Part shown: piece by piece, positions 4,108-27,050 of the stretch | How positions within the stretch are numbered: position 1 is the first letter of the stretch | How the letters are laid out: each line of letters starts with the position of its first letter | Source: Saprospiraceae bacterium | GTDB lineage: Bacteria > Bacteroidota > Bacteroidia > Chitinophagales > Saprospiraceae | Assembly (NCBI GenBank): GCA_026983735.1 | Contig: JALSTN010000261.1 | Span: 1-36,024 of the forward strand | DNA: 36,024 nucleotides | Direction of reading: 5' to 3' | Translations under genes and position numbers: made by a program | Notes under the pieces: model-generated | The model's input: the letters and a program-made list of their open reading frames with translations, nothing else | Databases searched by the model: none | What the model was told of the DNA's origin: nothing

Positions 4108-4119
4108 CCATTTCATACC
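4108..4119 (-). repeat. Dispersed 12-mer GGTATGAAATGG (intergenic copy, minus orientation)
   Basis: Exact match as CCATTTCATACC: gattcCCATTTCATACCggcac. Confidence 0.8.
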
Positions 4120-7767: not shown

Positions 7768-8760
7768 ATGAAAAAAATATTTATTCTATATACTCTTATC
7801 ATTGGATTTTCTTCTTTGGCATCTGCTCAGTGTTATCCCGATCGGCATAACACCACATGGTTTGACGCTTGGATATCTTGTGATATGGCGCAAAATCCAA
7901 ATCAAGCTAGAGGTACTTCCCACTGGATCATGTACGACCTGGGGCGAGATTACGTCATTAGCAAGATGCATTTCTGGAATCTTAACATTCCCGGTCGAAT
8001 CCAAGATGGCGTCAGACAAATGTCCATTGATGTTTCGGACAATGGTAACGACTGGACAGAAGTCGGCATTTATGAAGCGGACAGCGCTACGGCATCTAGC
8101 ATTTACGAAGGCGTAGAAATACCCGATTTTGGCCCTACTAGTGGGCAATATCTCTTGATAACGATCCTAGATACCTGGGGTGGAAATTGTGCAGGATTTA
8201 GTGAGATGAGAATTGAGGTAGAACCCAAAATCATCAGTTCTACCCCCCAGCTGGAAGATATGGACTGTCAGCCAAAGAAGGATGGCATTCGTATTACTTG
8301 GGAACAACAATCCAAAGATGAAGAAGTATTTATTGAAAAGAGTGTAGATGGTATGAAATGGCAAAATATCAACCATTTCATACCCAATAGTGCGTCTCAA
8401 GGAAGTTATTATTGGGAAGATAGAGAAACAACTCAAGGTTACTATCGACTCAAAAGAAAGCAATCCGGCGCGTTCGCTTACTCTAAAGTCCACTACTGTA
8501 CAAAATCAAGTTTGGTGGCTTCTGTCTGGCCCAACCCGGTTAAGGGCAAATGTCAACTCCGCATTGGAAGCACTTCCCATGCAAAAATAGAGTACCGTGT
8601 CAGCAACGTTTATGGGCAAACCATTCATAGCGCGTCAATTCCCGCTGCTGGCCCCCTCACTTACATTGATTTGAACTTACTTAGTCTCGCTCAAGGTACG
8701 TATATCATCGACGTCCAGCAAGACGGAGAAACCACTTCAACAAGATTTGTGAAGCTATAA
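7768..8760 (+). CDS. Secreted discoidin (F5/8 type C)-like protein with T9SS type A sorting domain
   Basis: Signal peptide MKKIFILYTLIIGFSSLASAQ; discoidin-like region 'WIMYDLGRDYVISKMHFWNLN...GVRQMSIDVSDNGNDWTEVG'; C-terminus 'SVWPNPVKGKCQLRI...YRVSNVYGQTIHS...LAQGTYIIDVQQDGETTSTRFVKL'. Confidence 0.82.
   Translation: MKKIFILYTLIIGFSSLASAQCYPDRHNTTWFDAWISCDMAQNPNQARGTSHWIMYDLGRDYVISKMHFWNLNIPGRIQDGVRQMSIDVSDNGNDWTEVGIYEADSATASSIYEGVEIPDFGPTSGQYLLITILDTWGGNCAGFSEMRIEVEPKIISSTPQLEDMDCQPKKDGIRITWEQQSKDEEVFIEKSVDGMKWQNINHFIPNSASQGSYYWEDRETTQGYYRLKRKQSGAFAYSKVHYCTKSSLVASVWPNPVKGKCQLRIGSTSHAKIEYRVSNVYGQTIHSASIPAAGPLTYIDLNLLSLAQGTYIIDVQQDGETTSTRFVKL
8350..8384. repeat. Inverted pair of the 12-mer (GGTATGAAATGG - 11 nt - CCATTTCATACC) within a CDS
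   Basis: GGTATGAAATGG at 8350-8361, CCATTTCATACC at 8373-8384, loop caaaatatcaa; perfect 12-bp stem. Confidence 0.85.
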
Positions 8761-12617: not shown

Positions 12618-13694
12618 TTATATCGCATTGCGATTGATACAATTCAAATCTTCAAAAGCTTGCTTTAATCTATCGACAAAAGAGATTTCAGCTTGCCTGA
12701 GCCACTTTCTAGGATCGTAGTACTTTTTATTAGGTTGGTCTTCACCTTTAGGATTGCCAATCTGAGTTTGAAGATAAGCTCCATGCTCCTTAAAATACTC
12801 CCGAACACCAGAAGCAAAAGCCCATTGTAGATCGGTATCTATATTCATTTTTACTACACCGTATTCTATGGCTTCTCGGATATCCTCTTTGGAGGAACCG
12901 GAGCCCCCGTGGAATACAAAGTCAACGGGGTTGGGTTTAGTTTTCCACTTATCCTGAATATATTTCTGTGAATTTTTAAGAATTATCGGCTCCAGGGTTA
13001 CATTCCCAGGTTTATAGACCCCATGGACATTGCCAAAGGCCGCGGCGACGGTAAAGCGATTGCTAATTTTTGAAAGCACTTCATACGCTCTAGCCACTTC
13101 TTCCGGCTGTGTATACAGAAGGCTATTATCGACATTAGAATTATCTACACCATCTTCTTCTCCACCGGTTACCCCTAATTCAATCTCCAATAGCATTTCA
13201 ATTTTGGACATCCGCTCGAGATACTCCGCAGAAATCCTCAGATTATCCTCAAGCGGCTCCTCTGAAAGATCCAGCATATGAGAGCTAAACAGAGGATGTC
13301 CTTTTTCCTTATAAAAACGCTCCCCGAAGCTCACCATTCCCTCTAGCCATGGCAATAATTTCTTCGCACAATGATCCGTATGGAGAACAACACTAACCCC
13401 ATACTCTTTAGCTAAAGTATGCACATGAGTTGCACCTGATATAGCCCCGAGAACGGAGGCTCTTTGATGGGTATTGTCCAATCCTTTTCCGGCATAGAAT
13501 GAAGCACCTCCATTTGAAAATTGAAGAATGACCGGAGAATTTACGGATTTTGCTGCTTCTAAAACTCCATTTACGGAATCAGTTCCTATTACGTTAGCCG
13601 CGGGAATAGCAAAGTTTTCCTCATTCGCATATCGGAATAATTCTACGAGTTCATCACCGTATAAAACACCTGCTCTAAATTTAGTTTTCGACAT
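12618..13694 (-). CDS. fbaA: Class II fructose-bisphosphate aldolase
   Basis: 'AIPAANVIGTDSVNGVLEAAKSVNSPVILQFSNGGASFYAGKGL', 'VVLHTDHCAKKLLPW', 'FVFHGGSGSSKEDI' match FbaA-type aldolases. Confidence 0.93.
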   Translation of the reverse strand: MSKTKFRAGVLYGDELVELFRYANEENFAIPAANVIGTDSVNGVLEAAKSVNSPVILQFSNGGASFYAGKGLDNTHQRASVLGAISGATHVHTLAKEYGVSVVLHTDHCAKKLLPWLEGMVSFGERFYKEKGHPLFSSHMLDLSEEPLEDNLRISAEYLERMSKIEMLLEIELGVTGGEEDGVDNSNVDNSLLYTQPEEVARAYEVLSKISNRFTVAAAFGNVHGVYKPGNVTLEPIILKNSQKYIQDKWKTKPNPVDFVFHGGSGSSKEDIREAIEYGVVKMNIDTDLQWAFASGVREYFKEHGAYLQTQIGNPKGEDQPNKKYYDPRKWLRQAEISFVDRLKQAFEDLNCINRNAI

Positions 13695-13843: not shown

Positions 13844-13884
13844 TAAAAGAGGTATGAAATGGTTGCCATTTCATACCTCTTTTA
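13844..13884. terminator. Perfect 19-bp-stem hairpin (3-nt loop) containing two inverted copies of the 12-mer; likely trxB terminator
   Basis: TAAAAGAGGTATGAAATGG-TTG-CCATTTCATACCTCTTTTA; 20 bp after the trxB stop on the minus strand, with A/T-rich stem ends. Confidence 0.75.
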
Positions 13885-13903: not shown

Positions 13904-14845
13904 TTACAGAATTTCCTTCTCGGACAAATATCTCTCGGCATCTAGGGCGGCCATCGCGCCACTACCTGCTGCAGTAATTGCCTGCCGATAAATACGATCC
14001 TGACAATCACCGGCAGCAAATATGCCTTCCACATTGGTTAGGGAACTGCCCGGCTTAGTAACGATATATCCTTGATCATCCATATCAATCCATCCTTTGA
14101 AAGGTTGGGTATTGGGGATATGACCGATCGCAACGAAAACAGCTTTAACGGGTAAGACTGTTTTCTCATTGGTCAATCTATTGAGTACCCTTACTCCATC
14201 TACCTCTTCTTCCCCAAGTATTTCGTCTACAACCGTATTCCAGTGGATGTCAATATTAGCAGCCTTTTTAACACGGTCTTGCATAATTTGGGATGCCCGC
14301 ATTTCATCTCGTCTCACCAAAAGGTTAACTTTAGGACTAATCTTCGATAGATATAATGCTTCTTCTAGTGCACTGTCTCCCCCCCCGACTACGGCCATCT
14401 CTTTACCTCTAAAGAAAAAGCCATCACAGACGGCACAAGAGGAAACCCCTTTATTCATCAATTTTTCTTCTGAAGGAATCCCCAGCCATCGTGCACTTGC
14501 ACCCGTAGAAATAATCACAGCGTGCGCTTGTATCTCTTCACCACCTGTTGTCCATAGCTTATGAACAGGACCTGTAAAATCAACCTTATCAATAACTTCA
14601 TACTTCACAACAGTACCAAATCGTTCAGCTTGCTTCCTAAAATCTTCCATCATCTCAGGCCCCTGTACACCTTCGGGGTATCCTGGATAGTTTTCTACGT
14701 CTGTTGTAATCGTCAATTGGCCACCGGGTTGTGGTCCGGTAAAAATAATTGGGGTCATACTCGCCCTGGCTGCGTAAATCCCGGCGGTATATCCCGAAGG
14801 ACCAGCCCCTAATATTAGACAATTATGAATTTGTTTTTCTTCCAT
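13904..14845 (-). CDS. trxB: Thioredoxin-disulfide reductase
   Basis: 'LILGAGPSGYTAGIYAARASMTPIIFTG', redox motif 'SSCAVCDGFFF', 'GIFAAGDCQDRIYRQAITAAGSG'. Confidence 0.94.
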   Translation of the reverse strand: MEEKQIHNCLILGAGPSGYTAGIYAARASMTPIIFTGPQPGGQLTITTDVENYPGYPEGVQGPEMMEDFRKQAERFGTVVKYEVIDKVDFTGPVHKLWTTGGEEIQAHAVIISTGASARWLGIPSEEKLMNKGVSSCAVCDGFFFRGKEMAVVGGGDSALEEALYLSKISPKVNLLVRRDEMRASQIMQDRVKKAANIDIHWNTVVDEILGEEEVDGVRVLNRLTNEKTVLPVKAVFVAIGHIPNTQPFKGWIDMDDQGYIVTKPGSSLTNVEGIFAAGDCQDRIYRQAITAAGSGAMAALDAERYLSEKEIL

Positions 14846-14892: not shown

Positions 14893-15447
14893 TTATACCC
14901 CTTTACCTTTCAATTGTTCGATTCGATTACACAAATTGTGACAAGTGTCACTTAGCTCTTCTTTCTTAACTTCATAAACGATATCTGCCATTTCATACCA
15001 AGGACCTCTTTCTTCTAAACCGCTTTCAATCCATTCCCTTATTTGAGCTTCAGATTTAGACGCAAGTAACGGACGCGTTTCAACATTGGCCTTCAAACGT
15101 TCAAATAGAAGGTCCTGTGTCCCTTTCAGGTACACACTTAATCCTGATTGACTCATGAGTTGATGAGTAACACTCCGGCAAGGTGTGCCTCCTCCGCATG
15201 CCACTATTAACGCATGAGATCCGGGAATAATCTTCTCCAACGCCTTCTTCTCATATTGCCGGAAAGCTTCTTCCCCCTCCAATTTAAAAATATCAGAAAT
15301 CGCACGTCCTCTTAATTCGGTAATGAAGGTATCCAAATCGATAAATGGAATTTCACATATTTCAGCGAGTTCCCTACCAACAGTAGATTTGCCTATACCT
15401 GGCATCCCCCACAGAAAAATAATACTTGAATGGGATCCCTTTTCCAT
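14893..15447 (-). CDS. aroK: Shikimate kinase
   Basis: Walker A 'WGMPGIGKSTVGRELAE', 'PFIDLDTFIT', 'GEEAFRQYEKKAL', 'VACGGGTPC', 'ETRPLL'. Confidence 0.88.
   Translation of the reverse strand: MEKGSHSSIIFLWGMPGIGKSTVGRELAEICEIPFIDLDTFITELRGRAISDIFKLEGEEAFRQYEKKALEKIIPGSHALIVACGGGTPCRSVTHQLMSQSGLSVYLKGTQDLLFERLKANVETRPLLASKSEAQIREWIESGLEERGPWYEMADIVYEVKKEELSDTCHNLCNRIEQLKGKGV
14988..14999 (-). repeat. Dispersed 12-mer GGTATGAAATGG (copy within aroK)
   Basis: Exact match as CCATTTCATACC: tctgCCATTTCATACCaagg. Confidence 0.8.
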
Positions 15448-27010: not shown

Positions 27011-27050
27011 AATGGTATGAAATGGTATGAAATGGTATGAAATGGTATAA
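27011..27050 (+). repeat. 10-bp tandem repeat (AATGGTATGA x3 + AATGGTATAA) spanning the ybbR-like start codon
   Basis: Read directly; contains three overlapping exact copies of GGTATGAAATGG (27014, 27024, 27034). Confidence 0.93.

Follow-up and report, generated by a model that had tools for sequence, protein, structure and literature searches.

The window, by which we mean the whole 36,024-nucleotide stretch of a Saprospiraceae contig analysed here (from the genome G000), carries a gene of the thioredoxin reductase type, trxB, followed downstream by fbaA for a class II fructose-bisphosphate aldolase, and the space between the two is occupied by a 41-nt hairpin whose sequence is exactly that given by the first-pass annotation. 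Its stem includes two inverted copies of a 12-mer, GGTATGAAATGG, of which the window holds 10 exact copies. Pfam matches in the window include a T9SS sorting domain and GldN, which assign the DNA to Bacteroidota. The features considered below are as follows.

2463-2474, + strand: copy of the 12-mer (motif scan)
4108-4119, - strand: copy of the 12-mer, intergenic (motif scan)
8350-8384, no strand: second facing pair of 12-mers, gap 11, in the ORF of a T9SS-sorted protein at 7768-8760 (motif scan, Pfam)
12618-13694, - strand: fbaA, class II fructose-bisphosphate aldolase, the downstream gene (ORF and Pfam)
13844-13884, no strand: perfect 19-bp hairpin with a 3-nt loop, terminator-like on both strands (sequence, fold, simulations)
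13851-13862, + strand: 12-mer copy GGTATGAAATGG, left arm of the hairpin (motif scan)
13866-13877, - strand: 12-mer copy GGTATGAAATGG, right arm of the hairpin (motif scan)
13904-14845, - strand: trxB, thioredoxin reductase type (Pyr_redox_2), the upstream gene, ending ahead of the hairpin (ORF and Pfam)
14988-14999, - strand: copy of the 12-mer in a shikimate kinase ORF (motif scan, Pfam)
27014-27045, + strand: three overlapping 12-mers with a 10-bp period, beside the start (27037) of a YbbR-like ORF (motif scan, Pfam)

The hairpin arms (13844-13862 and 13866-13884) are 19 nt each and 100% complementary around a loop that reads TTG on the forward and CAA on the reverse strand, confirming the perfect 19-bp stem and 3-nt loop described earlier. 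The hairpin does lie just past the trxB stop codon as described, at a measured distance of 19 nt and not 20 bp. It exceeds every other perfect inverted repeat of the window, and 30 windows simulated from an order-2 Markov model reach 7-12 bp. Compared with shuffled sequences, its predicted RNA structure scores z = -4.7, with 0 of 200 shuffles as stable. Within the stem, the two 12-mer copies occupy the loop-proximal end, and the base is TAAAAGA/TCTTTTA, with A4/T4 tracts on both sides; CTCTTTTA occurs on both strands, its four T within the stem. The hairpin was absent from the output of a consensus terminator scan because its T-tract is short (4 T) and inside the stem, and an Rfam scan of the window at gathering thresholds returned zero family matches. 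Elsewhere in the window, the called ATG of the YbbR-like ORF at 27037 falls within the third of the overlapping 12-mer copies.

A dispersed 12-mer in two related genera

The description of the 12-mer as dispersed was borne out genome-wide: the 3.32-Mb G000 holds 345 exact copies of GGTATGAAATGG (161 on the + and 184 on the - strand), a density of about 0.1 per kb, against none of the reversed word used as control. Within the window, 16 sites match with up to two mismatches where 4.5 would be expected, and in sampled DNA, some stretches of which were picked for listed sites, there are 73 copies in about 0.5 Mb of G000 and 83 in 0.67 Mb of G001, a genome of the same genus, compared with 0.1-0.3 from Markov models (0.1-0.2 for G000). 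This is the extreme genome-wide over-representation of a short, non-palindromic word that characterises uptake sequences. The core of the recognition word is GTATGAAATGGT; single mismatches fall mostly at the two bases of either end, leaving a strict core TATGAAAT, which is followed by T in 77% (G000) and 92% (G001) of copies and then by a weak tail, and the upstream flank is T-rich. A one-mismatch form, GGCATGAAATGGTGG, recurs in G001 (9 sampled copies); one copy lies in the trxB coding sequence there (L135), and the trxB of the window has none.

With ORFs called by a simple longest-ORF rule, about 60% of the copies fall within ORFs. They run in either orientation and use every frame in which the TGA built into the word does not act as a stop, and intergenic DNA is about 4-fold denser in copies. 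Orientation does not follow GC skew (38:35 and 41:42). As in uptake sequences, the word therefore occurs on both strands and in genic and intergenic DNA alike, and is tied neither to a protein motif nor to the direction of replication. An origin as a protein motif was rejected on the use of all permitted frames, and replication polarity on the GC-skew ratios; together with the occurrence in both orientations, these observations make a protein motif, a promoter element or a replication-polar site unlikely. The facing pair at 8350-8384, which falls within the coding region of a T9SS-sorted protein, indicates that the word is tolerated in coding DNA even as a hairpin. Copies are not clearly more evenly spaced than random (P = 0.20 and 0.08), a comparison of conserved with accessory genes rests on 3 and 8 sites, and site-by-site comparison of the sampled DNA of G000 and G001 yielded a single overlapping site, at which the word is unconserved.

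The distribution of the word is sharply bounded. Exact copies number 440 in G001 and 0-5 in the other sampled genera of the family. Among 397 family genomes, counts of GTATRAAATSGT reach 426 in G000, 601 in G001, 517 in G094 and 519 in G186, the last two belonging to a second genus, with the remaining 393 at control level; all four sampled genomes of the two genera thus carry the motif. In the second genus the dialect is GTATRAAATSGT, often followed by G (G094 sample of 131 kb, about 0.13 Mb, 53% G+C). By PNPase, G094 represents the closest sampled genus outside that of the window (72% identity, 1165 bits; the next scores 1116 bits). K-mer tables of 26-115 kb each from six sampled non-carrier genera, inspected by eye, revealed no comparable dispersed word. 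Judged by these genome sequences, the 12-mer is a clade-specific word in two dialects, as in Neisseriaceae, and so shares with uptake sequences their occurrence in related species in clade-specific forms.

Other repeats were encountered in the same samples. A longer, dispersed AT-rich repeat with ACATGAATTTTATTAA, often within TATGAAACGAACATGAATTTTATTAA...TTCACACAGA, occurs at about 24678 in the window and 14 times more in the sampled G000 DNA (e.g. L058, L067); it is probably a repeat of a small mobile or intergenic kind. The G001 sample has a different word, GTGCA(T/C)TTTGTAATACACAC, at about 29 places in 0.67 Mb (e.g. L046:576, L113:9705), followed in places by an inverted copy and resembling the ends of small elements. 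In the G024 sample (L168-L172), from an unrelated genus of the family, there are many words of the GAGGAATCGAGGAA/GAATTGAGGAA type, probably tandem arrays.

Facing pairs and probable termination after trxB

The first-pass annotation had likened the inverted pair to the terminator pairs of Neisseria DUS and Haemophilus USS. At this locus the likeness stands, with a dispersed word at a position suited to a terminator and bearing A4/T4 tracts; its extension to the whole genome does not. Facing pairs with a gap of up to 25 number 12, 11, 5 and 5 in the four carrier genomes, or 2-6% of copies. They are commoner than outward pairs of the exact 12-mer (0 in G000, 2 in G001), and of 16 facing pairs from the window's genus examined in context, six lie within about 45 bp past a stop codon, albeit in small numbers; to that extent the grounds on which the first-pass annotation would have been refuted apply only in part. 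Five of the 16 are inside genes. Only the trxB pair has T-tracts after the stem (1/16), and only there is the stem extended to 19 bp. Gene-end hairpins, defined as perfect stems of at least 7 bp, include the motif in one of 28 cases in G000 and one of 26 in G001 among the sampled gene ends, which contradicts a genome-wide role of such pairs as terminators. Frequent inverted pairs within terminators, a usual though not strictly defining trait of uptake sequences, are thus lacking for the 12-mer; Kingsford et al. report the motif in about 55% of Neisseria terminators and in 17-29% of those in Pasteurellaceae (PMC1852404).

The geometry of the pairs also varies. Six in G001 are back-to-back palindromes (gap 2 between 10-mers) and six in G000 have a gap of 10-11; at G000:C299:8413-8620, the motif or its dialect form makes up an array of four facing pairs at steps of about 44 bp. 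Because the upstream flank of the motif is T-rich, a facing pair normally reads T-hairpin-A, opposite to the polarity that a terminator requires. The trxB hairpin, flanked by TAAAAGA/TCTTTTA, is the exception among facing pairs.

This exception probably represents an intrinsic, bidirectional transcription terminator, with termination predicted to occur at 13844-13884. It is a stable hairpin shortly past a stop codon, as intrinsic terminators are, and it resembles those of G000 and G001 in its perfect stem, its A-tract and T-tract and its position a few tens of nucleotides past the stop, the A-tract/stem/T-tract design being common to other gene-end hairpins of G000. It differs from them in a shorter T-tract and in containing the 12-mer, from which nearly all of their stems are free. 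About 27 nt past the stop of the G001 trxB ortholog, whose protein is 89% identical, there is again a perfect 19-bp hairpin, ATAAAAATGGAAGGCGATA-GAGA-TATCGCCTTCCATTTTTAT, unrelated in sequence to that of the window, with A5/T5 tracts and without the 12-mer. A hairpin at the orthologous site suggests that this position needs one, a need that G000 would have met with two copies of the word.

Could the hairpin instead be no terminator at all, merely two uptake tags in inverted orientation like other facing pairs? Such a reading accords with the 15 of 16 examined facing pairs that have no T-tract, with those found inside genes and with a T-run of just four at trxB. We nevertheless consider it unlikely, while granting it appreciable weight: the trxB pair is the sole one with an extended 19-bp stem and T-tracts on both strands, an unrelated hairpin stands at about the same place after the orthologous trxB, and the usual T-rich upstream flank is replaced here by TAAAAGA, as if selected for termination.

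The 12-mer as a putative uptake tag

In its genomic signature the 12-mer matches a DNA uptake sequence, and from this we infer an uptake function. Hundreds of dispersed, mostly genic copies could also represent a site for chromosome organisation or repair (of the KOPS, Chi, nucleoid-protein or segregation type), the trxB hairpin then being a chance pairing used as a terminator. Both the 10-11 nt gap of the G000 pairs and the 10-bp tandem period could fit a protein binding to one face of the helix. KOPS and Chi-type words, however, are polar along the replichore, whereas the orientation of the 12-mer is unrelated to GC skew; known segregation and occlusion sites are palindromic and fewer; and a dialect shift between related genera, with no trace in the 393 other family members, would be unusual for a core function. 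We therefore regard a chromosomal site as improbable.

A mutational, methylation or repair bias might maintain the word even if it played no part in uptake. Such maintenance has been proposed for HIP1 of cyanobacteria, which is likewise clade-specific and very abundant and whose function is debated. HIP1 is palindromic and 8 bp long, whereas the word described here is non-palindromic, a 12-13-mer whose extended flank is weakly conserved, and we are aware of no methylase or repair enzyme recognising a site of such length; a bias of this kind is accordingly a distinctly poor candidate. Poorer still, and in our view very improbable, is descent from a small mobile element or a REP-like repeat family. 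The word is repeated, is paired in places and forms the motif-pair array of C299 in G000, but similarity stops a few bases beyond it on either side, its copies are mostly single, genic and in all permitted frames, and the other dispersed elements of G000 look different, being longer repeats.

The best-studied systems of sequence-specific DNA uptake, those of Neisseriaceae and Pasteurellaceae, are tied to type IV pili; these two proteobacterial families are the only ones for which such signals are known in detail. The DUS of Neisseriaceae (GCCGTCTGAA and its dialects) resembles the 12-mer in being a non-palindromic word of 10-13 bp with hundreds of copies, present on both strands and in genic and intergenic DNA, with some facing pairs that form hairpins (PMC3630211, PMC1852404) and, as reported by Frye et al., with clade-specific dialects that have TGA in one frame (PMC3630211). 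The 12-mer differs in belonging to a different phylum, in its unrelated sequence, in its very few facing pairs and its absence from nearly all terminators, and in a density that falls well short of the DUS numbers given for several genomes of Neisseriaceae (PMC3630211). With the USS of Pasteurellaceae (AAGTGCGGT and its extended motif) it shares a strict core that is short and has a weak extended motif after it, dispersed and unpolarised copies, and facing pairs at preferred gaps; the USS flank, however, starts with A, such that facing pairs read A-hairpin-T (PMC1852404), unlike the T-rich upstream flank of the 12-mer.

The machinery also seems to depart from these models. In the three of the four carrier genomes that were scanned (G000, G001 and G094), with the 12 best candidates per genome scored, no PilB/PilT-type motor ATPase (PF00437) passed the cut-off, and 11 other family genomes gave clear matches with E-values of 1e-100 or better. 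Where uptake sequences are served by a minor type IV pilin receptor within a pilus system, as with ComN, the proposed USS receptor and itself a minor type IV pilin (PMC12616744), the failure to find the motor means that a receptor of the ComP/ComN type is not expected here. A putative receptor would thus be independent of pili, and the usual type IV pilin system is unlikely. ComEC (PF03772) was found in G000, where its reading frame is interrupted by a contig end, as well as in G001 and G094, and also in all nine non-carriers tested, hence its presence does not discriminate carriers. Within the same phylum, Riemerella achieves competence with ComEC, DprA, ComF and RecA, the other proteins involved being novel (PMC8459023), and when DNAs compete R. 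columbina favours its own (PMC7965970); an established uptake word is lacking there, the candidates being A-rich k-mers (PMC7965970). In the open-licence literature searched we found no report of a Bacteroidota uptake sequence, and the exact 12-mer retrieved unrelated titles, those listed being mostly rodent and cell studies, probably through primers.

In the mechanism we propose, a surface or periplasmic receptor preferring tagged DNA would bias uptake during natural transformation, recombination of the incoming tagged DNA would keep the tag and spread it over the chromosome by molecular drive, and the stem of the trxB terminator would have been assembled from two inverted copies of the tag. 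That the hairpin is a terminator of trxB assembled from two inverted copies of the word, and that the word works as a self-recognition tag for DNA uptake, we put at about an even chance, on the sequence evidence set out above. Slightly more tentative, and a little short of even, is our wider proposal that the two Bacteroidota genera constitute a third independent lineage of uptake sequences, with its own dialects and a receptor independent of type IV pili, and that the tag at trxB was co-opted into a terminator. If true, uptake tags can arise with another uptake machine, in Bacteroidota in which no pilus motor was detected. DNA bearing the motif could then serve as bait, giving a direct handle on the largely unknown DNA receptor of Bacteroidota, and the two dialects would allow a natural test of its specificity.
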